Assembly: GCA_009699025.1 (NCBI GenBank)
Contig: WLOZ01000041.1
Span: forward strand, 1 to 9,963
Origin: Actinomycetota bacterium
GTDB lineage: Bacteria; Actinomycetota; Actinomycetes; S36-B12; CAIYMF01
Direction: 5' to 3'
DNA length: 9,963 nucleotides
Shown here: in pieces, positions 1-9,963 of the stretch
Layout of the letters: each line of letters begins with the position of its first letter
Position numbering within the stretch: the stretch's first letter is position 1
The notes under the pieces: model-generated
The model's database searches: none
What the model was told of the DNA's origin: nothing
The model's input: the letters and a program-made list of their open reading frames with translations, nothing else
Translations under genes and position numbers: made by a program

Positions 1-1700
1 ACCCGCACGACACCGTCGCGCAGTTCGACATCGCGTTCGGCGACCTCGTTGAGTGAGGCGAACACTGCGATCGCCTTCTGCCGAACCGACTGAGATGCCA
101 GTAGCGTGGCGCTGCCAGCCATCACTGAAAGCCGGCTGGCGAAGGCCCCCATGCCATAGCCGACGTCGGCCGTGCCACCGTGAGTGACCGTCATCCGGTC
201 GATGGGCACACCCAGCACCTCGGCGCAGACCTGGGCAATCACGGTTTCGAACCCCTGACCGACCGATGATCCACCCGTGGCGATGGTGACGTGACCTGAC
301 TCGTCGACCGTCACGCGAACACCTTCGAAGGGTCCTAGTCCGCTCTTCTCCACAAAGAAGGCACGGCCCAGGCCAACGAGTTCGCCCGCCTGCCGTCGTC
401 GTCGCACGTCGTCCTCAACCTCCGCCAGCCCCCACTCAGACTCACATCGATCGACGAGGAGGGCATAGTCACCACTGTCGTACTCGACATGCGTTCCGAG
501 CGCCTGAAGCGGTCGTGAGAACGGCATCTCCTCCGGCGTGATGAAGTTGCGCCGGCGGACATCCATCGCAGTGAGCCCCAGTTCATCAGCAATGCGGTCT
601 ATCAGCCGCTCCCTGGCAAAGGTGCCCTCGTATCGTCCGGGCGACCGGTAGGTGCCGGCCGGCGTCTTGTTGGTGAGTCGGACGTGGCAGGAGACGCGGT
701 AGTTCGGAATGCGGTAGGGGCCCGGCAGCATCGAGGCCGTGAGGGTGGGAACAGTGGCCGCGTGCGTGCGCACATAGGCACCCTGATCGAGCCAAAACTC
801 ATCGTCGAGGGCCTCAATGACCCCTTCAGCAGTCACGGCCGCGCGCAGGCGGTGCACCTGATCGCGCGAGTGGTTGGCACTGATGAAGTGCTCGCGTCGG
901 TCCTCGATCCACGAAACCGGTCGGCCCAGCTTCCGCGACGCCCAACACACCAGCGCATCCTCGGGGTAGAGCTCACCCCGAATTCCGAATCCGCCGCCGA
1001 CGTGATTCTCGTGCAAAACAACATGCGATGGTGCCATTCCGAGCATGGCGCTCAGGGCATCACGGTTGTAGTGGGGCACCTTGGCGGCACCGTAGAAGTC
1101 GAGAATGCCCGTGGCAGGGTCGAACGAGGCCACCGCCCCGCGGCACTCCAACGGAATTCCCGAGTGACGCCCAATGCGGGCCTCGACCTCCACGATGCGC
1201 AGGCCCGCGGCCATGGCTGCCTCGACATCGCCGTACGCCCAGGTGAAGTCCAGGGCCGCGGTGTTGTTCAGGTCGTCGAACGCACCGGGCTCCTCCAGCG
1301 CCGAGAGCACCACCGGAAGTTCATCGATCTCGACAACGACCAGTTCCTCGGCATCCTCAGCGATGTACCTGTCCGTTGCCACCACGATGGCGACCGGCTC
1401 GCCCACATATCGAACGCGGTCGACGGCTAGTACCGGCTGTCGGTAGGGCAGCATCTCGGGGAAGGAGACCTGGCGGAACTCGATCACCGGTAGATCGACA
1501 TCGGCAGCCGACCACGCACCGAGCACCCCGGGAAGCTCCCGAGCCTGCTGGAGGTCAACTGATCGGATCACTCCGTGCGCGACCGACGATCGCACGACCC
1601 GAAGGTGCACCTGTCCGGGCAGCGCATGGTCAGCGGCGAAGAGCCCTCGACCCATCAGCAGTGGCCGATCCTCCAGGCGCGGCAGAGACCGACCGATCAT
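1..1700 (-). CDS. Molybdopterin-binding large subunit of a xanthine dehydrogenase-family hydroxylase, second copy (partial, 3' end beyond window)
   Basis: Catalytic subunit that would hold the molybdopterin-cytosine dinucleotide cofactor and hydroxylate a heterocycle or aldehyde in the cytoplasm. The frame is open from the ATG at 1700 to the window edge, giving 566 residues; the family usually has about 750-800, so the C-terminus with the catalytic GVGEGG-type Glu lies outside. Visible motifs are N-terminal IGRSLPRLED (residues 2-11), VGGGFGIRG (234-242, where relatives usually read GGFGGK), TYRSPGRYEG (350-359), GQGFET (481-486) and GMGAFASR (516-523). The start overlaps the stop of the iron-sulfur subunit (ATGA, 1697-1700), implying translational coupling. 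It is clearly paralogous to the large subunit at 2173-4497 but diverged, so two large subunits share one set of electron-transfer subunits. The family is certain; the substrate is unknown. Confidence 0.93.
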   Translation of the reverse strand, partial: MIGRSLPRLEDRPLLMGRGLFAADHALPGQVHLRVVRSSVAHGVIRSVDLQQARELPGVLGAWSAADVDLPVIEFRQVSFPEMLPYRQPVLAVDRVRYVGEPVAIVVATDRYIAEDAEELVVVEIDELPVVLSALEEPGAFDDLNNTAALDFTWAYGDVEAAMAAGLRIVEVEARIGRHSGIPLECRGAVASFDPATGILDFYGAAKVPHYNRDALSAMLGMAPSHVVLHENHVGGGFGIRGELYPEDALVCWASRKLGRPVSWIEDRREHFISANHSRDQVHRLRAAVTAEGVIEALDDEFWLDQGAYVRTHAATVPTLTASMLPGPYRIPNYRVSCHVRLTNKTPAGTYRSPGRYEGTFARERLIDRIADELGLTAMDVRRRNFITPEEMPFSRPLQALGTHVEYDSGDYALLVDRCESEWGLAEVEDDVRRRRQAGELVGLGRAFFVEKSGLGPFEGVRVTVDESGHVTIATGGSSVGQGFETVIAQVCAEVLGVPIDRMTVTHGGTADVGYGMGAFASRLSVMAGSATLLASQSVRQKAIAVFASLNEVAERDVELRDGVVR

Positions 1701-2176
1701 GCCCGAGATTCCTCGATCGCTGCCCTGATGGCCGTGCGGATGTTCTGGTAACCGGTGCAGCGGCACAGGTTCGAAGCGATCAGGTGGTCGAGTTCGTCGT
1801 CATCGGGAACAGTCTCACGCTCAACGAGCGACGCTGCGAGCATGAGAAAGCCGGGAGTGCAGAAGCCGCACTGCAACCCGTGATGCTTCCAGAACGCCTC
1901 CTGAACCGGGTGAAGCGTCTCACCGTCTGGCGACAACCCCTCCACCGTGCGCAGTTCGCGTCCGGCCCCCTGCACGGCGAGCATCAGACACGAGCGAACC
2001 GGCTCGCCGTCGCACAGAATCGTGCAGGATCCGCAGACACCGTGCTCACAGCCGAGGTGGGTGCCAGTGAGCCCACAATCCTCCCGAATCGCGTCAGCGA
2101 GCGACTTGCGCGGCTCGACGTCAAGAAAGTACTCCGAGTCGTTGACCTTCAGCGTGATGCCTATCTTCGCGGTCAT
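1697..2176 (-). CDS. 2x[2Fe-2S] small subunit of the molybdenum hydroxylase (CoxS-like)
   Basis: Electron-transfer subunit of 159 residues, full length for the family. It passes electrons from the molybdenum centre to FAD. The N-terminal plant-ferredoxin-type cluster is bound by C43, C48, C51 and C63 (in CEHGVCGSC and RSCLML). The C-terminal helical-domain cluster is bound by C103, C106, C138 and C140 (in CGFCTPG and NLCRCTG). All eight cysteines are present, so the protein should be functional. The ATG at 2176 has a perfect AAGGAGG (plus-strand 2184-2190) seven bases upstream, embedded in the last codons of the preceding large-subunit gene, whose stop overlaps this start (ATGA). It lies between two large-subunit genes and overlaps both by four bases. 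Confidence 0.97.
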   Translation of the reverse strand: MTAKIGITLKVNDSEYFLDVEPRKSLADAIREDCGLTGTHLGCEHGVCGSCTILCDGEPVRSCLMLAVQGAGRELRTVEGLSPDGETLHPVQEAFWKHHGLQCGFCTPGFLMLAASLVERETVPDDDELDHLIASNLCRCTGYQNIRTAIRAAIEESRA

Positions 2177-4497
2177 CGTGTGGCCTCCTTGATTCTGATC
2201 GCTGCGCGAAGCCGCGAAGGTGTCGCGGGCATTTCGTTGACATCGATGCCATAGCCCGACAGTGCGTCGGTGATGGCGTTGAGGATCGCGGCCGGGGCTC
2301 CGATCGTGCCACCCTCGCCGACTCCCTTGGCGCCCGTGAGGGTGGCATCGGTCACCGTCTCGAGATGGTGCAACTCGATGAACGGAACCTCACATGCGGT
2401 GGGTGGCAGGTAGTCAAGGAATGAGGTGGTGAGCAGGTTGCCATGCTCGTCATAGACGAGTTCTTCGAGCAGCGCATTGGCGATGCCCTGCGCCACCCCA
2501 CCGTGAATCTGTCCGTCGACAATCGCGGGATTCACCAGAACGCCAGCGTCCTCCACCACGACATAGCGAACGATCTCGGCCGCCCCAGTCTCCGGATCAA
2601 CCTCGACCTCAACCACGTGGCAGGCATTGGAGAAGGTGCCGCCCGGGTCGTAGACACCCTGCCCGTAGAGCCCCGGACCCCGACCCGGATTGCGGTGCGA
2701 CGACAGATAGGCAGTGCGCGCTACCTCGTCGAGAGCGACACCCACGTCAGATCCGACCACGTAGGCGTAACCCCCGCGCAGCACGAGGTCACGCGGCGAG
2801 CACTCCAGCATCGAGCCCGCTACCTGCTTGATCTGCTCGGCCAGGGCCTCACTGGCATTGGCCGTCGCCCCACCACAAATCACCATCGAACGGCTCGCGA
2901 AACTGCCCCATCCGAAGGGTGTCGAATCGGTGTCTCCCGAGATGACTCGAACCCGGTGTGGCTCGATGCCGAGGTGGTCTGCGATGAGTTGCGCCAGCGA
3001 CGTGTGCAACCCCTGGCCGTGCGGACTGGCCCCAATGCGCGCGGTGACATAGCCCGAGGGGTCCATATCCATCTCAACGCGCTCGTACCCCGGGGTAATC
3101 GCCATCCCACGAGCGGCGAAGGCAGGGGTGCCATAGCCCGTGCGCTCGCTGAAGACCGACAGGCCCTGGCCCAGCAGGCGCCCCCGCCTGAGAGCGTCTG
3201 CCTTGCGCTGAGCGAGACCTTCTCGCTGGGCGAGATCCTCGGCCCACGCCAGCGACGCGGTGTACGACCCCTCGTCGTAAACCAGCCCCGATGGCGAGGT
3301 GTGCGGAAACGAACTCACCAGACTCCGGCGACGCAACTCCCAGGGGTCAATCCCGAGCTCGCGCGCTGCCGTATCCATGAGCCGTTCCATCGCCAACGTC
3401 TGAACCGGACGAGAAACGCCACGGTAGGGTGCGATGGGACATTTATTCGACAGCACGGCGCGCGCACGCACCGCGTAGTGCTCGATGGCGTAGGGCCCCG
3501 GAAGCTCGGCCATGGCCATCAGCGGCTCGACCCCAAACGTCACGGGGTAGCAGGAGTAGGCGCCCACGTCAGCGACGATGTCGGCTCGCAGGGCAACGAG
3601 GCGGCCCTCCTTGAACCCACCGGACACCTGGTAAACCTGCTCGCGACTGTGCCACGCCGACAGGAAGTTCTCCGACCGCGTCTCAATCCAGGCGATCGAG
3701 GTGCGCAGTGTGCGCGCGATGTGCACGAGCGCGACATCCTCGCGCGCCAGGGTCATCTTGCCGCCGAAGGCCCCACCCACATCGGGTGCGATGACGCGCA
3801 GAGAACTCGCTGGAATTCCGAGCGAGTCGCAGATGCCGGTGCGCACCACGTGAGGCATCTGCGCCGAGGTGGTCAGGGTCGTGCGACCGGTTCGGCGATC
3901 GAAGGCCGCCACCGACCCGCGTGTTTCCAACGGCACCGCCGACTGCCGACGGCTGACGACCTCGATGGTGGTGTGGTGGTCGCACTCTGCCCACGCGCCC
4001 TCGAAGTCGTTCGTGTGGATTCGACCGTCGACAACGGTGTTGGGGTCGCCGGGAAAGGTGACGTCGTGCACCGGGCGCGAGCCTGGCCGAATGGCGAGTT
4101 GGGCCGAGAGCACGGGGTCAACCGGATCGATGTCGACCTCGACCATTTCGGCGAGATCCTCGGCCTCAGCGGGCGTTCTGCCCAAGACCACTGCCACCGG
4201 CTCGCCGATGAACCGCACCACGGCACCGGCGAGGATCGGCATCGCAACCGGCACGTAGTCAGGACGAGTCAGCACCGGCGTGATGGGGGCAGCGGCGAGG
4301 TCTGAGGCCGTGAAGAGGTGCGCACCCACCGGGCCACGGATCGAGCGAACCGTACCGGCAGCCACGCTGCTGCGCACAAAGACCGCGTGCCACTGGGCAT
4401 CAACGGCATAGTCAGCGACGAAGCGCCCCTCGCCTCGCAAAATCGTCGGATCGTCGAGTCTTGGCAGGCTGCGCCCGACCCAGGTCGGGATGCTCAC
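2173..4497 (-). CDS. Molybdopterin-binding large subunit of a xanthine dehydrogenase-family hydroxylase, first copy
   Basis: Complete catalytic subunit of 774 residues, normal for the family. Motifs in order: VGRSLPRLDD near the N-terminus, PLETRG (189-194), VGGAFGGK (240-247, molybdopterin contact), PYRGVSRP (357-364, active-site loop), HGQGLHTS (493-500), and GAKGVGEGG near residue 728, whose Glu is the expected catalytic base. The active-site loop lacks the Cys of true form I CO dehydrogenase (AYRCSFR), so this is not a carboxydotroph CO dehydrogenase; the loop also departs from the common YRGxGRPE. The start is GTG at 4497, chosen because it overlaps the stop of the FAD subunit (GTGA) and gives the standard N-terminus. 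Its end carries the Shine-Dalgarno sequence of the next gene. The substrate is not determinable from sequence; a nitrogen heterocycle is the best guess from context. Confidence 0.96.
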   Translation of the reverse strand: MSIPTWVGRSLPRLDDPTILRGEGRFVADYAVDAQWHAVFVRSSVAAGTVRSIRGPVGAHLFTASDLAAAPITPVLTRPDYVPVAMPILAGAVVRFIGEPVAVVLGRTPAEAEDLAEMVEVDIDPVDPVLSAQLAIRPGSRPVHDVTFPGDPNTVVDGRIHTNDFEGAWAECDHHTTIEVVSRRQSAVPLETRGSVAAFDRRTGRTTLTTSAQMPHVVRTGICDSLGIPASSLRVIAPDVGGAFGGKMTLAREDVALVHIARTLRTSIAWIETRSENFLSAWHSREQVYQVSGGFKEGRLVALRADIVADVGAYSCYPVTFGVEPLMAMAELPGPYAIEHYAVRARAVLSNKCPIAPYRGVSRPVQTLAMERLMDTAARELGIDPWELRRRSLVSSFPHTSPSGLVYDEGSYTASLAWAEDLAQREGLAQRKADALRRGRLLGQGLSVFSERTGYGTPAFAARGMAITPGYERVEMDMDPSGYVTARIGASPHGQGLHTSLAQLIADHLGIEPHRVRVISGDTDSTPFGWGSFASRSMVICGGATANASEALAEQIKQVAGSMLECSPRDLVLRGGYAYVVGSDVGVALDEVARTAYLSSHRNPGRGPGLYGQGVYDPGGTFSNACHVVEVEVDPETGAAEIVRYVVVEDAGVLVNPAIVDGQIHGGVAQGIANALLEELVYDEHGNLLTTSFLDYLPPTACEVPFIELHHLETVTDATLTGAKGVGEGGTIGAPAAILNAITDALSGYGIDVNEMPATPSRLRAAIRIKEATR

Positions 4498-5348
4498 AAC
4501 GTGTCGCCCGAGAGCGAACGTCGAGTCAGTGCTCGGACGAGATCTCGGCGAAAATCACCATCACCGTGAAGGTCTGACTGCGGATTGACCTCCTCAGCAG
4601 CGACATCGGCCGCCCTGGCGAAAGCCTCGACCGTTGCCGAGCCTCCGACCAGCAGTGCCTCGGCGTTGGCCAGTCGCACGGTTCGATCAGCAACTCCGCC
4701 GGCACACAGACGTACGTCGGTAACGACACCCTCGCGAACCGTGATCGACGACATGATCGCGACGATGGCGAAGTCGCCGGCTCGCCGAGCAAACTCGACC
4801 ACGTTGGTGCGAGTGTCGTCACCGAGCAGAGGCACACGCACCCCGGTGAGCACCTCGTTGTACTCGAGGGTGGTGGTGAACATCGTGACGAAGAAGTCCT
4901 GCGCAGCGATCTCTCGCGTGCCAGCCGGTCCGTACACGATCATCGTGGCATCGAGGAGGGCCACCAGTTGGCACCACTCACTTGCGGGGTCGCTGTGCGC
5001 GATGCTGCCCCCAAAAGTTCCGCGCACTCGAATCGGGTAGTGCCCCACGAGGCGAGCGGCCTTGCGAACGAGCACGCCGAGCGGTCCGGGCAGGGCGCTT
5101 GACTCCATGTCTCGGTGCGTGGTGAGGGTGCCAACCGTGACGTGATCAGGTCCGACCTCCATCCCCCTGAGCCCCGGAATGCGACCAATGTCGATCAGGG
5201 CAGTGGGCCGGGCAAGCCGAAAGTTCATCATCGGCAGCAGGCTCTGCCCGCCTGCGAGAACCTTGGACTCATCGCCGAACTCAGTGAGTGCGCCGACAAC
5301 TTCGTCGAGGCTCGTAGGGGCGATGTAGTCGAATACCTGGGGCTTCAT
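4494..5348 (-). CDS. FAD-binding subunit of the molybdenum hydroxylase (CoxM-like)
   Basis: Flavoprotein subunit of 284 residues, normal for CoxM-type proteins. It takes electrons from the iron-sulfur subunit and passes them to an acceptor such as NAD+, a quinone or oxygen. The two FAD-binding signatures are intact: AGGQSLLPMMNFRLARP (residues 32-48) and TFGGSIAHSDPASEW (111-125). The N-terminus MKPQVFDYIAPTSLDE is typical, so the ATG at 5348 is well supported; AGGAAAG-like purines lie about ten bases upstream. The stop overlaps the GTG of the following large subunit by four bases. On the other side, the start overlaps the stop of a possible 31-codon ORF (ATGA). The order FAD subunit, large subunit, small subunit is a common arrangement for this family. 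Confidence 0.96.
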   Translation of the reverse strand: MKPQVFDYIAPTSLDEVVGALTEFGDESKVLAGGQSLLPMMNFRLARPTALIDIGRIPGLRGMEVGPDHVTVGTLTTHRDMESSALPGPLGVLVRKAARLVGHYPIRVRGTFGGSIAHSDPASEWCQLVALLDATMIVYGPAGTREIAAQDFFVTMFTTTLEYNEVLTGVRVPLLGDDTRTNVVEFARRAGDFAIVAIMSSITVREGVVTDVRLCAGGVADRTVRLANAEALLVGGSATVEAFARAADVAAEEVNPQSDLHGDGDFRRDLVRALTRRSLSGDTL

Positions 5349-5440
5349 GAGCGGGCTACTTTCCTCATCAACGCGGGGGTGCGCCGACCCGCGATAACCA
5401 ACCCAGCTTCGCCGGTGTCGCTGACATCGACGAGGGTCAC
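5345..5440 (-). CDS. Possible 31-residue small protein between the cupin and FAD-subunit genes
   Basis: Unrecognised small ORF. It starts at GTG 5440, overlapping the cupin stop (GTGA), and ends with TGA 5347-5345, overlapping the FAD-subunit start (ATGA), so it exactly fills what would otherwise be the only gap in the operon. The product begins VTLVDVSDTGEAG and ends LMRKVARS; it is acidic at the front and basic at the back, with no clear membrane segment or known motif. By hand count, G/C is about 65, 55 and 74% at codon positions 1, 2 and 3, a coding-like pattern. No strong Shine-Dalgarno is seen; a GAGG lies about eleven bases upstream of the GTG. It may be a real small subunit or a device that carries ribosomes across to the next gene. 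A chance open frame remains possible. Confidence 0.42.
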   Translation of the reverse strand: MTLVDVSDTGEAGLVIAGRRTPALMRKVARS

Positions 5441-5844
5441 GTCGAGTCCAGCCTCGTCAGAATCGCTTCCACATCAACGCCGGCGAGCCTCAGCATGGTG
5501 GTGTCGGCCGGGCAGGGTCCTCCAGCGCTCACCACGGTACTGCCTCGATCAGCCCTCACCGCATGCCGAACGCCGATGGGAACATGAAGCACATCTCCGG
5601 CCGTGAACTCCAGCACGACGTCGTTGTCATGGTCCTTGATGGTTCCCACCCCCTCGAGAATCATGATGGTGTCCTCAGACTCCGGATGAATGTGGGGAAC
5701 ATTCTCCTCACCCGGCTGCATAACGACGTAGTTCATGTTGGCCGTGCGCGCCCCCTCGCCCAACCACACGATCAGGCGGGCGTCTCGCGAGATGATCGGC
5801 ACCATCAGCCCCGGCCGGTCGCGGTGGAAGTACTTAATCGCCAT
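5437..5844 (-). CDS. Small single-domain cupin protein with intact metal site
   Basis: Protein of 135 residues with a conserved beta-barrel cupin core. Cupin motif 1 is PGEENVPHIHPESE with H51, H53 and E57. Cupin motif 2 is GDVLHVPIGVRH with H94. These four residues form the usual divalent-metal site, so a metal-dependent enzyme or metabolite-binding role is plausible. The C-terminal strand carries GGPCPAD, shared with the upstream cupin (GGPCPVD), and both have an RxIxW segment near residue 25-35, so the two are paralogues. The ATG shares one base with the TAA of the upstream cupin (TAATG). The stop overlaps the GTG of the 31-codon ORF. Exact activity is unknown; isomerase, dioxygenase and aminohydrolase roles all occur among small cupins, and the operon suggests a step before or after ring oxidation. 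Confidence 0.88.
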   Translation of the reverse strand: MAIKYFHRDRPGLMVPIISRDARLIVWLGEGARTANMNYVVMQPGEENVPHIHPESEDTIMILEGVGTIKDHDNDVVLEFTAGDVLHVPIGVRHAVRADRGSTVVSAGGPCPADTTMLRLAGVDVEAILTRLDST

Positions 5845-6251
5845 TATTGTCCGCCCAATGCCGTGAGGCCGAGGCTGGAATAAAGCGACTCGTCGACCGG
5901 GCAGGGGCCCCCGATGACCACCGACACGTCGGCGACCGACGAGAACGCGTACGCCGTACCGGGCTCCACATGAAACATGCCTCCGGTCGGGACCAGCGTG
6001 GGTGCGTCGACTTCCGAGGCCTGCGTGAACTCAGTGACCTCAACCTCGCCGCTCATCACGTAATAGACCGCCTCCCCCGGATGCTGCAGCGGAAGGATGC
6101 CGGCGCCTCGCGGCAGCGTGAAGTGGTGCAGTGACCGCTCACGCGCCCCCATACCCGGCCAGATGATCGGACGACACTCTCCGCCAGTGACAATTTCTAG
6201 CGGGGGGGCCCACTCGTTGGGGGTGATGACCCGCACCGCGCCCTGCCTCAT
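5844..6251 (-). CDS. Small single-domain cupin protein with degraded metal site
   Basis: First gene of the leftward operon, 135 residues from ATG 6251. A GTG at 6263 would add four residues, but the purine-rich GGAAGGTGG (6268-6260) sits eight bases before the ATG and touches the GTG, so ATG is preferred. Cupin motif 1 reads LPLQHPGEAVYYVMSGE and motif 2 reads GGMFHVEPGTAYAF. Against the neighbouring cupin, the first motif-1 His is Leu and the motif-2 His is Tyr, leaving one His and one Glu of four usual ligands. It probably does not bind metal in the standard way. The C-terminal GGPCPVDES segment matches the other cupin. It may pair with the other cupin as a split bicupin, or bind a ligand without catalysis. 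Function is unknown. Confidence 0.85.
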   Translation of the reverse strand: MRQGAVRVITPNEWAPPLEIVTGGECRPIIWPGMGARERSLHHFTLPRGAGILPLQHPGEAVYYVMSGEVEVTEFTQASEVDAPTLVPTGGMFHVEPGTAYAFSSVADVSVVIGGPCPVDESLYSSLGLTALGGQ

Positions 6252-6402
6252 TCGCGCGTCCACCTTCCGATTGCCGACTGATCGAAACGTATTCCATCTC
6301 CGCGAGCAATTGCAAGATGAATGAAATAATTATACTGGTACTGCTGACACGGCCACCTCAGGCAGCGTAGCCTCCGTTGACAACGACGAGAGGAGTGGCG
6401 TG
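6252..6402. promoter_or_regulatory. Divergent promoter region between the cupin/hydroxylase operon and the C-N hydrolase gene
   Basis: The only clearly AT-rich stretch of the window (about 6306-6340). On the minus strand a perfect TATAAT occupies 6334-6329, without a good -35. On the plus strand TATACT at 6331-6336 overlaps it, with TTGCAA (6310-6315) 15 bases upstream; CTGACA (6344-6349) with TAGCCT (6368-6373) is an alternative. The overlapping -10 boxes would make the two promoters compete. Possible operator elements are the palindrome GCAATTGC (6306-6313) and an imperfect inverted repeat, ATTCCATCT (6291-6299) with AGATGAAT (6315-6322). No regulator gene is visible. Promoter calls are by eye. 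Confidence 0.55.
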
Positions 6403-7296
6403 ATGAGAATCAGGCTCGGCGTGGTGTCGGCGGAGACTAACTTCGGCGACGAGGAGCATCGCAATCTCCCTCGTGCCCTCGAGCACATTCAGATGGCGGG
6501 CGCTCTGGGGGTTGACCTCCTCATGTTTGCTGAGAACTTCCCGGGCCCGTTCACCGAAAGCAATCGCTATGAGGTGCACGAGCCCATCGCAGACATGGCC
6601 CGCACCCAGGGGGTTTCTGTCGTCTATGGCACCTCGATCGAGCGCGCCGATGCACCGGGCCACTACAACATCGCCTCGGTCATCGTGGGATCTGACGGCG
6701 AGACCGTGGGCGCCTATCTGCGCACGCATCCCCAGGGTCCGTACATCTACCGGTCAGGCCCCCAGTGGAACTTCGAGTACGTCGAGGCCGAGGAGTTCCC
6801 GGTGTTCGACATGCCGTGGGGCAAACTCGCCATCTCAATCTGCAGCGAGGTTCACCTTCCGGAAATCGCCCGGATCTACGCCCTCAAGGGGGCCGAGGTT
6901 CTGCTCATTCCGAGTGGGCTGCTGATCGACGAGTTGGGGTACACCGACAACTGGAGAACCCTCGTCCGCGCTCGGGCCATCGAGAACCACATGTACACGG
7001 CCACGACGGTGAACCTGATGGATCGCGCCGTCGCACAACACTTCGCTCCTACCGCGCTCGATCTTCCCCAGCACGGTTCGGGCCTCACGGCAGGTATCGC
7101 CATGATCGCCGGACCGGAGAGGGTGCTCGCCGAAAGCCACGAGCCGGGCATCCTGACCGCGGAGCTTGACCTCGACCGGCTGCGCTGGCTGCGCAGCACC
7201 GAGGAGGAGCTCATCGTGCCGGCCCCCTACCGCACGATTCCTGGGCATCTGGCCTGGCGCCGCCCGAGCATCTACGGCCGTCTGACCGAATCATGA
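6403..7296 (+). CDS. Nitrilase-superfamily carbon-nitrogen hydrolase with Arg at the catalytic Lys position
   Basis: Protein of 297 residues with the full C-N hydrolase fold, of the kind that hydrolyses amides, N-carbamoyl compounds or nitriles. The catalytic Glu is E44 (FAENFPGP) and the nucleophile C147 (ISICSEVHLPEIAR), followed by GAEVLLIPSG. The segment that normally reads YRKTH reads YLRTH, so R107 stands where the catalytic Lys is expected (alignment by eye). ATG 6403 is chosen over GTG 6400 because AGGAG (6391-6395) lies seven bases before it. It is the first gene of the rightward arm, divergent from the cupin/hydroxylase operon. In context it could open a carbamoylated or amide product of ring degradation, but the Lys change raises the possibility of altered chemistry or a non-catalytic role. 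The specific substrate is unknown. Confidence 0.9.
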   Translation: MRIRLGVVSAETNFGDEEHRNLPRALEHIQMAGALGVDLLMFAENFPGPFTESNRYEVHEPIADMARTQGVSVVYGTSIERADAPGHYNIASVIVGSDGETVGAYLRTHPQGPYIYRSGPQWNFEYVEAEEFPVFDMPWGKLAISICSEVHLPEIARIYALKGAEVLLIPSGLLIDELGYTDNWRTLVRARAIENHMYTATTVNLMDRAVAQHFAPTALDLPQHGSGLTAGIAMIAGPERVLAESHEPGILTAELDLDRLRWLRSTEEELIVPAPYRTIPGHLAWRRPSIYGRLTES

Positions 7297-7303
7297 TCCC
7301 GTC

Positions 7304-7330
7304 AACACATCTCGGTTGTGTTTCAATTTT
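7304..7330 (+). terminator. Weak terminator-like hairpin after the C-N hydrolase gene
   Basis: AACACA (7304-7309) pairs with TGTGTT (7317-7322) around a seven-base loop, followed by the T-rich TCAATTTT. The stem is short and AT-rich, so it would terminate inefficiently if at all. It starts eight bases after the hydrolase stop. It overlaps the left arm of the operator-like repeat described next, so the two readings compete. Confidence 0.3.
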
Positions 7331-7367
7331 ATCGCAAGTGCTTGACGCCTGTTGAAACATAGACAAC
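7315..7367. promoter_or_regulatory. Concentric inverted repeats upstream of the BMP lipoprotein gene, candidate operator/promoter
   Basis: Outer arms GTTTCAA (7320-7326) and TTGAAAC (7352-7358) are centred on 7339. Inner arms CAAG (7335-7338) and CTTG (7341-7344) have nearly the same centre, and GTTGT (7315-7319) mirrors ACAAC (7363-7367) outside them. A TTGACG (7342-7347) could be a -35 box, but no good -10 was found at normal spacing. The symmetry suggests a dimeric regulator's site, for example of LacI or GntR type, in the 111-base gap before the transporter gene. The regulator type is a guess. Confidence 0.4.
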
Positions 7368-7407
7368 AGTCGGCTGATCGCCCACCTCGTCCCACGGAAG
7401 GTTTGAT

Positions 7408-8568
7408 ATGAAGCGAATCGCCACTCTTGCTGCAGTCGCCACATTGGCGCTCGCAGCCTGCGGATCCGGCGGAGGGTCAGCAACCTCCTCCTCGGCGTCC
7501 GGTAGCCCAGCCGCGTCATCACCCGCTGCGTCCTCCCCCGCTGCGTCCTCACCTGCCGCCGCCACGCTGCAGGTTGGCTTCGTGTACGTCTCGCCGCTGA
7601 AGGGTTCGAGTTGGACCTTGGCCTGGGACAACGCGCGTCAAGCGGTCGAGGCAGCAGGTGCGACCACCGCAACCGTCGAGCCCATCCCAGAGTCCGCCGA
7701 GGCTGCAGGCGTCATGGAGGACCTGATCAGCAAGGGCAACAAGCTCATCTTCGCGACGGCTTTCGGCTACCAGCCCTTCGTGCTCGAGGAGGCCACCAAG
7801 CATCCAGACGTGAACTTCGTCGTGATCGGTCCGTGGATCCAGGAGACGCCAGCTCCCGCCAACGTGACCGTTGCCTTCTCGGACAACTGGATCGTCCGCT
7901 ACGCGCTGGGAGTGCTAGCGGCAAAGGAGACCAAGACTAAGACCATCGGTTTCGTGGCAGCGAACCCGATCTCGACGGTGATTGCGTCGATCAATGCCTT
8001 TGCCCTCGGCGCACAGTCCGTCGACAAGAGCATCGTGACCAAGGCCGTGTTCACCGGCACGTGGTACGACCCGCCCAAGTCGACACAGGCGGCCGAAGCC
8101 CTTGCCGCCGCGGGAGCCGATGTGATCGCTCAGTACGAGGACTCGGTCGGCGCCCTGCTGGGGGCCGAGAAGGCCGGTGTGTGGGGAATCGGATCGGAGG
8201 CTGACACTAGCGCCTTCGCACCCGACGCCTATCTCTCAGGCTCGGTCAACAACTGGAACGACTTTGCGGTGGGCGCGACGAAGGCCACCATCGACGGCAC
8301 CTGGAAGAGCACCGTCTACGTGGGAATGCTTCAGGACGGCGGCACCGGCCTGGGTCCCATCAACGCGAAGGCGACTCCGGATGCGAGGGCTGCTGCCGAA
8401 GCCGCGATCGCAGGGCTGACGGACGGGTCGATCGTTCCTTTCACCGGGCCGATCAAGGACAACACCGGCAAGGAGGTCCTGAAGGCAGGGAAGCAGTGGA
8501 AGGGTGTCGAGGTGCTTGACAACATGACCTTCCTCGTTGAAGGAGTCGACGGCACCATCCCGTCCTAA
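7408..8568 (+). CDS. BMP-family ABC transporter substrate-binding lipoprotein
   Basis: Membrane-anchored solute-binding protein of 386 residues. The N-terminus is a lipoprotein signal: MKR, a hydrophobic stretch, then lipobox LAAC with C18 as the lipidated residue. Residues 19-52 form a Ser/Gly/Ala/Pro-rich tether containing SPAAS repeats. The binding domain begins at LQVGFVYVSP (about residue 52) and shows BMP/PnrA-like features: SSWTLAWDNARQAVE, then LIFATAFGYQPFVLEEATKHPDVNFVVIG. Members of this family bind nucleosides, purines and related compounds. The ATG is supported by GGAAGG (7396-7401) six bases upstream. The stop TAA merges with the AAGGAG serving the next gene, the transporter ATPase. 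Context with a xanthine dehydrogenase-type enzyme supports a purine-like or other nitrogen-heterocycle ligand, but this is inference. Confidence 0.93.
   Translation: MKRIATLAAVATLALAACGSGGGSATSSSASGSPAASSPAASSPAASSPAAATLQVGFVYVSPLKGSSWTLAWDNARQAVEAAGATTATVEPIPESAEAAGVMEDLISKGNKLIFATAFGYQPFVLEEATKHPDVNFVVIGPWIQETPAPANVTVAFSDNWIVRYALGVLAAKETKTKTIGFVAANPISTVIASINAFALGAQSVDKSIVTKAVFTGTWYDPPKSTQAAEALAAAGADVIAQYEDSVGALLGAEKAGVWGIGSEADTSAFAPDAYLSGSVNNWNDFAVGATKATIDGTWKSTVYVGMLQDGGTGLGPINAKATPDARAAAEAAIAGLTDGSIVPFTGPIKDNTGKEVLKAGKQWKGVEVLDNMTFLVEGVDGTIPS
7504..7563 (+). repeat. Four tandem 15-base units encoding SPAAS in the lipoprotein tether
   Basis: Units at 7504-7518, 7519-7533, 7534-7548 and 7549-7563 encode SPAAS three times and then SPAAA. 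The middle two are nearly identical at base level (TCACCCGCTGCGTCC and TCCCCCGCTGCGTCC). They lengthen the flexible linker between the lipid anchor and the binding domain, and are in frame, so gain or loss of a unit would only change linker length. Confidence 0.8.
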
Positions 8569-8572
8569 GGAG
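8567..8572 (+). promoter_or_regulatory. Ribosome binding site that supports a CTG start for the ABC ATPase
   Basis: AAGGAG overlaps the TAA stop of the lipoprotein gene (8566-8568) and lies five bases before an in-frame CTG (8578-8580). No ATG, GTG or TTG lies within normal range of it in any useful frame. The other in-frame starts, TTG 8596 and ATG 8647, have no comparable upstream sequence. Confidence 0.55.
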
Positions 8573-8577
8573 TCACG

Positions 8578-9963
8578 CTGAACTCGCGCGAACCCTTGGG
8601 TTCCAATGCCGCTAGCCCGGAGAGTGTCGCTCTCCGGGCTAGCGGCATGTCGAAGTCGTTTGGCGGAGTCGCCGCCGTCAGCGAGGTCGACATCACGATT
8701 CAACACGGGCGCATCCATGCCCTGCTCGGGGAGAACGGTGCAGGCAAGTCGACGCTCATCTCCATGCTGTGCGGTCAGTACCGCCCTGATGCTGGCCGCA
8801 TCGAGGTTCATGGCCGTGAGGTTCACCTGCGCAGCCCCAAGGATGCACTGAACGCTGGCATCGGCGTGGTGCATCAGGACTTCCGGCTCGTCCCACCCTT
8901 CACCGTCACCGAAAACGTGGTTCTCGGCACCAAGACCCGCGCCGATCGCAAGGCCGAGCAGCGAGTCATGGAACTCGCCGAGTCACTCAACTTCCATCTC
9001 TCGCCGCGCGCGAAGGTTCGCGACCTCGTGGTGGGGCAGCAGCAGCAGACTGAAATTCTCAAGCTGATCTTCCGCGGCATGGATGTGCTCATCCTGGACG
9101 AGCCCACGGCCGTGCTGACCCCGCAGCAGGCCGAACAGCTTTTCGCCGCCCTCAGGACTCTCGCCGACCAGGGCAAGGCAGTGGTGTTCGTCAGCCACCG
9201 ACTCAACGAAGTAGCAGACTCAGCCGATCACCTCACCGTGCTGCGAGGTGGCACCGTGGTGGCCGATGGCCCCGCGCGCGGCCTTGGACCCAAGGAATTG
9301 GCCCGGTTGATGGTGGGAGACGCCGCCGATCGCCCGGCTTCCCCCCGGGCTCATCGTCAGCCCGGGCCCGAGCTACTGGCCCTGCGTGCCGCCACGATCA
9401 ACACCGGCGGTCGCAACTGCCTCAACAGCATCAACCTCAGCCTTCGCGCAGGCGAGGTGGTCGGGGTTGCCGGAGTCAGCGGTAACGGGCAGCGCTTGCT
9501 GGCCGATGCCGTGGCAGGAATCCGTTCGCTCGATGCCGGCGACAGAGTGAGCGAGGCGGCGACGGTCGCCTACATCCCGGAGGATCGACTGGGTACGGGC
9601 CTCGTGGGGTCGATGTCGATTGCTGCGAACCTAGCGATGCGTCGATACCGCGAACCGGGTATCTCCCCCTGGTGGGTCCTCCCTTCGCGCCTGCGCAGGG
9701 ACGCCCTTCCGCTCATTGAGGACTACCAGATTCCGGCCGGTCCGGCCGTCGAGGCGGGGGCGCTGTCCGGCGGAGGCCAGCAGCGAGTGGTTACTGCCCG
9801 GGAGATGAGTCGCACACCCGATGTCGTGGTGGCCAGCCAGCCGACCCGTGGCCTCGATGTGGTGTCGGCCGCCGCCGTTCGCGAGCGGATCGTCGCGGTG
9901 GCCGAGCGCGGGGGCGCCGTGCTGGTCCTCAGCGAGGACCTCGACGAGCTGAGGGAGGTCTGC
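8578..9963 (+). CDS. Fused two-domain ABC transporter ATP-binding protein for the BMP-type importer (partial, 3' end beyond window)
   Basis: ATPase with two nucleotide-binding domains in one chain, as in RbsA/YufO-type importers; 462 codons are visible and the end is outside. Numbered from CTG 8578, domain 1 has Walker A GENGAGKST (about 51-59), a non-canonical signature LVVGQQQQ (150-157), Walker B LILDEPTA (from 171) and the switch His in SHR (207). Domain 2 has a Walker A lacking the Lys, GVSGNGQR (from 299), a good signature LSGGGQQR (from 396), then ASQPTRGLD and LSEDLDE. This asymmetry leaves one competent ATP site and is usual in the family. CTG 8578 is chosen for its AAGGAG; starting at ATG 8647 would cut off the first beta strand (VALRASGMSKSFGG), which relatives keep. 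TTG 8596 is the alternative. It pairs with the lipoprotein gene, and permease genes should follow. Confidence 0.92.
   Translation, partial: MNSREPLGSNAASPESVALRASGMSKSFGGVAAVSEVDITIQHGRIHALLGENGAGKSTLISMLCGQYRPDAGRIEVHGREVHLRSPKDALNAGIGVVHQDFRLVPPFTVTENVVLGTKTRADRKAEQRVMELAESLNFHLSPRAKVRDLVVGQQQQTEILKLIFRGMDVLILDEPTAVLTPQQAEQLFAALRTLADQGKAVVFVSHRLNEVADSADHLTVLRGGTVVADGPARGLGPKELARLMVGDAADRPASPRAHRQPGPELLALRAATINTGGRNCLNSINLSLRAGEVVGVAGVSGNGQRLLADAVAGIRSLDAGDRVSEAATVAYIPEDRLGTGLVGSMSIAANLAMRRYREPGISPWWVLPSRLRRDALPLIEDYQIPAGPAVEAGALSGGGQQRVVTAREMSRTPDVVVASQPTRGLDVVSAAAVRERIVAVAERGGAVLVLSEDLDELREVC
8590..8603 (+). repeat. Small inverted repeat just before the long hairpin
   Basis: GAACCC (8590-8595) and GGGTTC (8598-8603) are perfect arms around TT; as RNA, five pairs with a CTTG loop would form. 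It ends two bases before the 19-bp repeat, so the two would stack as tandem hairpins near the start of the ATPase message. The TTG at 8596 lies in its loop. Confidence 0.55.
8606..8648 (+). repeat. Perfect 19-bp inverted repeat with five-base loop at the start of the ABC ATPase gene
   Basis: The left arm ATGCCGCTAGCCCGGAGAG (8606-8624) is exactly complementary to the right arm 8630-8648, around the loop TGTCG. The RNA would form a very stable GC-rich hairpin 37 bases after the lipoprotein stop. No T-tract follows, so it is not a classical intrinsic terminator, though actinobacterial terminators often lack one. It could protect the 3' end of the lipoprotein message, attenuate the downstream genes, or gate translation. 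The right arm includes the first two bases of ATG 8647 and encodes part of the first beta strand of the ATPase. Confidence 0.93.

Follow-up and report, generated by a model that had tools for sequence, protein, structure and literature searches.

How is an excess of binding protein over the membrane complex of an ABC transporter obtained from one mRNA? The answer is known for a few model bacteria, and the question is raised here by a hairpin at the junction of a binding-protein gene and a transporter ATPase gene in a 9,963-nt stretch of actinomycetotal DNA, the whole of which is referred to as the window. Nearly every related junction that was recognised has a hairpin behind the binding-protein gene; in one clade, to which the window belongs, the hairpin is apparently inside the ATPase coding sequence. 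What is new is that paired amino-acid changes, as read from related sequences, likely maintain the stem.

The gene junction and the ATPase start

On the plus strand, a carbon-nitrogen hydrolase gene (6400-7293) is followed by the gene of a substrate-binding lipoprotein of the BMP/PnrA-like family (7408-8568; Pfam PF02608, E = 3.1e-36), which ends in a TAA stop codon at 8566-8568, and by the gene of an ABC transporter ATPase (8578-9963; Pfam PF00005, E = 4.6e-40), which runs off the window. The minus-strand open reading frames at 3-6263 presumably encode two large molybdenum-hydroxylase subunits, an iron-sulphur subunit, an FAD subunit, and two cupins; our guess is that a purine-type catabolic cluster adjoins the transporter.

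The ATPase frame runs open from 8569, the base after the binding-protein TAA, and the only candidate starts 5′ of the stem are CTG 8578 and TTG 8596. The sequence AAGGAG (8567-8572, plus strand), a probable ribosome-binding sequence, overlaps the binding-protein stop codon; CTG 8578 lies five bases behind it, while TTG 8596 has no such sequence. Because of this spacing, CTG 8578 is the probable ATPase start, with TTG 8596 as the alternative. ATG 8647, where the stem ends, also lies in the ATPase frame, but its use as the start would omit the conserved LRASG stretch. In 11 relatives of the window's clade, the listed start lies 4 to 12 residues ahead of the segment facing the 3′ arm of the stem, so that the hairpin region there falls inside the listed coding sequence. 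In the predicted fold of 8564-8599, AAGGAG is in part base-paired to 8593-8599, a hint that translation of the ATPase depends on ribosomes completing the binding-protein gene.

A perfect 19-bp hairpin in the ATPase frame

The hairpin comprises a 5′ arm at 8606-8624, which carries the codons N-A-A-S-P-E-S of the ATPase N-terminal tail, a UGUCG loop at 8625-8629, and a 3′ arm at 8630-8648, which carries the codons A-L-R-A-S-G-M in the first predicted beta-strand of the ATPase, all on the plus strand. As the original prediction stated, these two arms pair without mismatch: 19 of 19 positions are complementary, with no G-U pair and a spacing of 5 nt, and a T8625-G8629 wobble forms the 20th pair in the folded RNA. 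The minimum free energy is -42 kcal/mol (z = -10.5), and the hairpin retains a z of -7.4 in a 151-nt context. The claim that it lies far beyond chance was likewise upheld, perfect arms elsewhere in the window reaching 8 at most and the longest arms in 40 simulated windows (first-order Markov) ranging from 7 to 12. It had also been placed between the two genes, which holds for its position at the junction but not strictly, since the ATPase frame is already open from 8569; its first base lies in that open frame, 37 nt past the binding-protein stop. Counted from the putative start CTG 8578, the stem spans nt 29-71, or about codons 10-24, of the ATPase gene.

A transposon or repeat reading was rejected at the scale of the window: when it was searched with up to three mismatches allowed, only the two hairpin arms matched each other. 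A described RNA family was rejected as well, as no Rfam family exceeded its gathering threshold in 7300-9000; the best match, mir-M7 (24.5 bits against 91), is a resemblance that any hairpin would show.

Codon choice within the stem

The stem region reads N-A-A-S-P-E-S-V-A-L-R-A-S-G-M, and its arms are in codon register: E faces L, P faces R, S faces A, A faces S, and A faces G, while a further N-M pair lies partly outside and a further S-A pair partly inside. With these amino acids and the codon usage of the window alone, the exact probability of obtaining all 19 pairs is 3e-8. Among 200,000 random synonymous codings the maximum was 17 of the 19 pairs, and none of 2000 synonymous codings folded as stably as the real stem. 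Codon choice in the stem is thus non-random. The idea that the hairpin is also protein-coding is very probably right; the stem stands in the ATPase frame with its arms in codon register.

Paired amino acids in related ATPases

In a protein search with the window ATPase (best 120 of 7998 matches), the clade P0002-P0016, 56 to 97% identical, tops the listed matches; other ATPases among the matches listed reach 57-58%, and identity alone therefore does not delimit the clade. A second search, with P0014 as the query, gave largely the same leading matches; the one clade member it added was P0122, a fragment that does not contain the hairpin region. The genes of binding protein and ATPase seem to stay together as a pair, because several homologues of both sit on equally long contigs (for example 11328, 16699, 4317, 6910, 23932, and 19840).

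Facing codons were compared in 12 clade sequences with complete N-termini, one of them the window's, which gave 60 facing pairs; P0002, P0004, and P0010 were left out, their listed sequences beginning past the stem, as was P0012, which is off register and was counted among 90 other ATPases. Judged from the protein sequences, 54 of the 60 pairs can take complementary codons, and 57 can when G-U is admitted. The residues that face each other vary: E/L, E/F, D/V, G/L, and R/L at the first position; P/R, A/R, and L/Q at the next; S/A and G/A, then A/S, D/I, G/T, G/A, and R/T further on; and A/G, T/G, V/N, P/G, G/G, and N/G at the last. When right arms were re-dealt among the sequences, the mean was 43.6 and none of 20,000 permutations reached 54, a figure that overstates independence and is not a true probability, the sequences being one family with P0007 and P0008 close to each other. 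Shifted registers yielded at most 33% of pairs that could be coded as complementary, and the 90 other listed ATPases 30%, with none over three of five. P0012, a close relative at 59% identity, has three of five pairs and is a counter-example; with it included, the total becomes 57 of 65.

From these 12 sequences, read at the protein level, the arms appear to have undergone compensating changes. An AlphaFold2 model built from alignment A1 (mean pLDDT 84.2) has pLDDT below 50 for residues 1-16, which correspond to 8569-8616 and take in bases 1-11 of the 19-base 5′ arm, and places the first beta-strand at residues 20-31 (8626-8661), covering the 3′ arm. The model is consistent with a direction of compensation in which the ATPase's conserved first strand would constrain the 3′ arm, and the 5′ arm, in the free tail, would follow through compensating amino-acid changes. 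Strand changes such as L to F or V, R to Q, S to I, T, or A, and G to N would then draw into the tail an amino acid with a complementary codon. Whether the N-terminal tail is in effect the antisense of the first beta-strand codons, kept so by non-synonymous compensation in relatives down to about 55% identity, is a proposal for which we consider the case evenly balanced. If DNA of the clade confirms the pairing, the stem would be a clear natural case of RNA structure choosing amino acids; if the proposal is true, synonymous and paired changes make RNA-chosen amino acids directly testable.

DNA of more distant relatives

Whole genomes were searched with the window protein at the level of a phylum (396 genomes), classes (39 and 399), one order (121 and 129), and a family (50), and 296 genomes of one class were searched with alignment A1. 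Across these genome searches, the closest relative with DNA was the locus L153, at 56% identity. A scan of genome contigs gave 22 loci whose best segments were at most 38% identical, a scan of viral contigs gave one distant locus, and a search of plasmid DNA gave no match. The L153 ATPase probably starts at a GTG overlapping the binding-protein stop, because the listed proteins P0038 and P0042 begin with the same VVRPADT. Codons 12 to 30 of this gene fold into a long coding stem, in a register unlike that of the window, and 7 of 2000 synonymous codings were equally stable.

Synonymous resampling was applied to ten loci at which the ATPase has a start upstream of the stem; several have another one downstream as well. 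Five of the ten (L033, L068, L100, L024, and L153) had z values of -2 or below, the other five ranged from -0.1 to -1.8, and none of 52 internal control windows reached -2. In a set of five distant loci (L065, L068, L099, L100, and L128), for which coding status is uncertain in L128 and not proved in the other four, three pairs carried changes on both sides; among 500 shuffles, 93 reached this number and 30 reached the covariation score. In alignment A3, the 12 outer stem pairs are without variation and were not counted. The original prediction had called for compensatory changes in relatives: the amino-acid pairs of the 12 clade sequences speak for them, but the DNA of the five distant relatives offers weak covariation evidence.

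Recurrence of hairpins at related junctions

For a census of related junctions, genomes were sampled around one Acidimicrobiia and one Demequina genome, a stem score of at least 10 within 140 nt of the binding-protein stop was required, and controls were taken from flanking genes; 60 of 130 locus rows were used, and 70 in which the motif did not recognise the binding-protein end were dropped. A strong hairpin past the binding-protein stop was found at 57 of the 60 recognised junctions, lying a median of 15 nt from the stop, versus 6 of 480 control windows. The claim that the hairpin belongs to the binding-protein/ATPase junction is supported. A looser census (score of at least 11) found hairpins in 88 of 124 rows, which include some wrong upstream frames and one gene entered twice (L025 and L062), versus 4 of 744 controls.

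The junction hairpins differ in sequence and sit before or after the ATPase start. At 29 of the 57 hairpin junctions, ATG, GTG, or TTG starts occur only downstream and the stem is intergenic; at 14, the ATPase frame is closed ahead of the stem; eight have starts on both sides, five have no ATG, GTG, or TTG on either side, and one (L033) has its sole start, the ATG in TGATG, before the stem. What stays constant is the location past the binding-protein stop; coding status does not.

A conserved programmed frameshift at the binding-protein end was rejected as a general rule, as the relative frame of the ATPase is 0, 1, or 2 depending on the locus. At L094, L122, and L123, from the last in-frame stop, which lies upstream of the binding-protein stop, to the conserved LRGITK core, the ATPase frame contains no ATG, GTG, TTG, CTG, ATT, ATC, or ATA over 23-32 codons; L115 is similar, with one GTG in that span, and the hairpin begins 7 nt past the binding-protein stop. 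At these odd-start loci, the ATPase may be fed by a frameshift at the binding-protein end or by a very unusual start.

Candidate functions of the hairpin

The explanation that we somewhat favour is that the stem-loop would form the 3′ boundary of the binding-protein message within a polycistronic mRNA and thereby raise the binding-protein/ATPase ratio. The ATPase part, with a rare CTG or TTG start and a strong stem in its first codons, would be poorly translated and hence open to cleavage; after cleavage there, the stem would halt 3′-to-5′ exonucleases, and the binding-protein mRNA would survive. In the window's clade, the stem would also be protein-coding because the ATPase start probably lies upstream of it. 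Three functions, namely attenuator, mRNA protector, and translational gate, had been offered in the original prediction. The attenuator in its classic form is disfavoured: the stem is followed by no U-tract, with 2 T in the next 8 bases (tail GTCGAAGTCG), and no terminator-like site was found in 8400-8900. The absence of a U-tract, together with the probably coding stem, favours protection, the option that has the closest published precedent (PMC5927463). The most probable mode of action is therefore that of a protective hairpin lying within the next coding sequence. Any of the three, be it protection, termination, or a translational effect, would shift the ratio in the same way.

An intrinsic, Rho-independent terminator was rejected for this GC-rich stem with its U-poor tail. 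A partial transcription terminator, at which some RNA polymerases would stop past the binding-protein gene while the rest read into the ATPase gene, is the more serious competitor and has, in our estimate, roughly one chance in five of being correct. T-rich tails follow the hairpins at some related junctions (6 or 7 T in 8 bases, for example at L138, L146, and L097), and the stem-loops that follow binding-protein genes in clostridial ABC operons, many with poor U-tracts, terminated 20.7 to 96.1% of transcripts in a reporter (PMC9045158). The composition of the window tail and the lack of terminator-like sites around it argue against this reading, as does the translated position of the stem. 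Termination in such a position is awkward, as a following ribosome would interfere. A gate at the level of translation, with the stem slowing or blocking early ATPase elongation or re-initiation and leaving RNA stability unaffected, would suit a stem over about codons 10-24 from CTG 8578, a weak start, and a partly paired ribosome-binding sequence; we regard it as unlikely, given that the 29 junctions with only downstream starts show that a translated position is not the constant feature.

Two further readings would dispense with an RNA function. Replication template switching could rewrite one arm from the other and create a mutational palindrome, and the perfect window stem, with 19 pairs free of G-U, and the free N-terminal arm that seems to follow the constrained one would fit such a process. 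Three of the six non-complementary clade pairs (G/L twice and R/L) are nevertheless compatible with G-U, which template switching would not favour, and hairpins of different sequence at the same place in nearly all recognised junctions would be left unexplained, which makes this origin quite improbable. The least probable reading, to which we give hardly any credence, takes the stem for a protein-level coincidence or for the DNA site of a dimeric regulator. A dimer could indeed bind an inverted repeat, but a binding site would keep its sequence, whereas the facing residues vary with complementarity still possible, and coincidence is opposed by the 3e-8 probability of the stem arising from its amino acids.

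Comparison with known systems

A protective hairpin at the window junction would have its nearest counterparts in E. coli. In five ABC operons, the stabilised gene encodes the substrate-binding subunit and its message outlasts the rest; of 26 protective hairpins, 17 were located within the next coding sequence, 107 +/- 56 nt in, and no uridine tract followed the hairpins (PMC5927463). The window stem resembles these differential-decay hairpins in being a stable stem with no U-tract that forms a boundary behind a substrate-binding gene, lies in the first ~100 nt of the downstream coding sequence, and, as judged from the facing amino acids, may be conserved in relatives (PMC5927463). The E. coli hairpins were located from RNA 3′ ends and half-lives, whereas the window stem is predicted from its sequence, and the conservation described for the former concerns wobble positions, whereas in the window's clade it apparently proceeds through paired amino-acid changes (PMC5927463). 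Like the malE-malF intercistronic hairpin, the window stem comes after an ABC importer's binding-protein gene, although the former is intergenic and belongs to another transporter family, and the latter stands in a coding frame (PMC5927463).

In Clostridia, stem-loops past binding-protein genes partly terminate transcription (PMC9045158). These internal terminators share with the window hairpin the same operon position, a long GC-rich stem, and a poor U content; they were described in intergenic regions, and their termination was demonstrated by Northern blot, whereas the window stem lies in the ATPase frame and is recognised from its sequence (PMC9045158).
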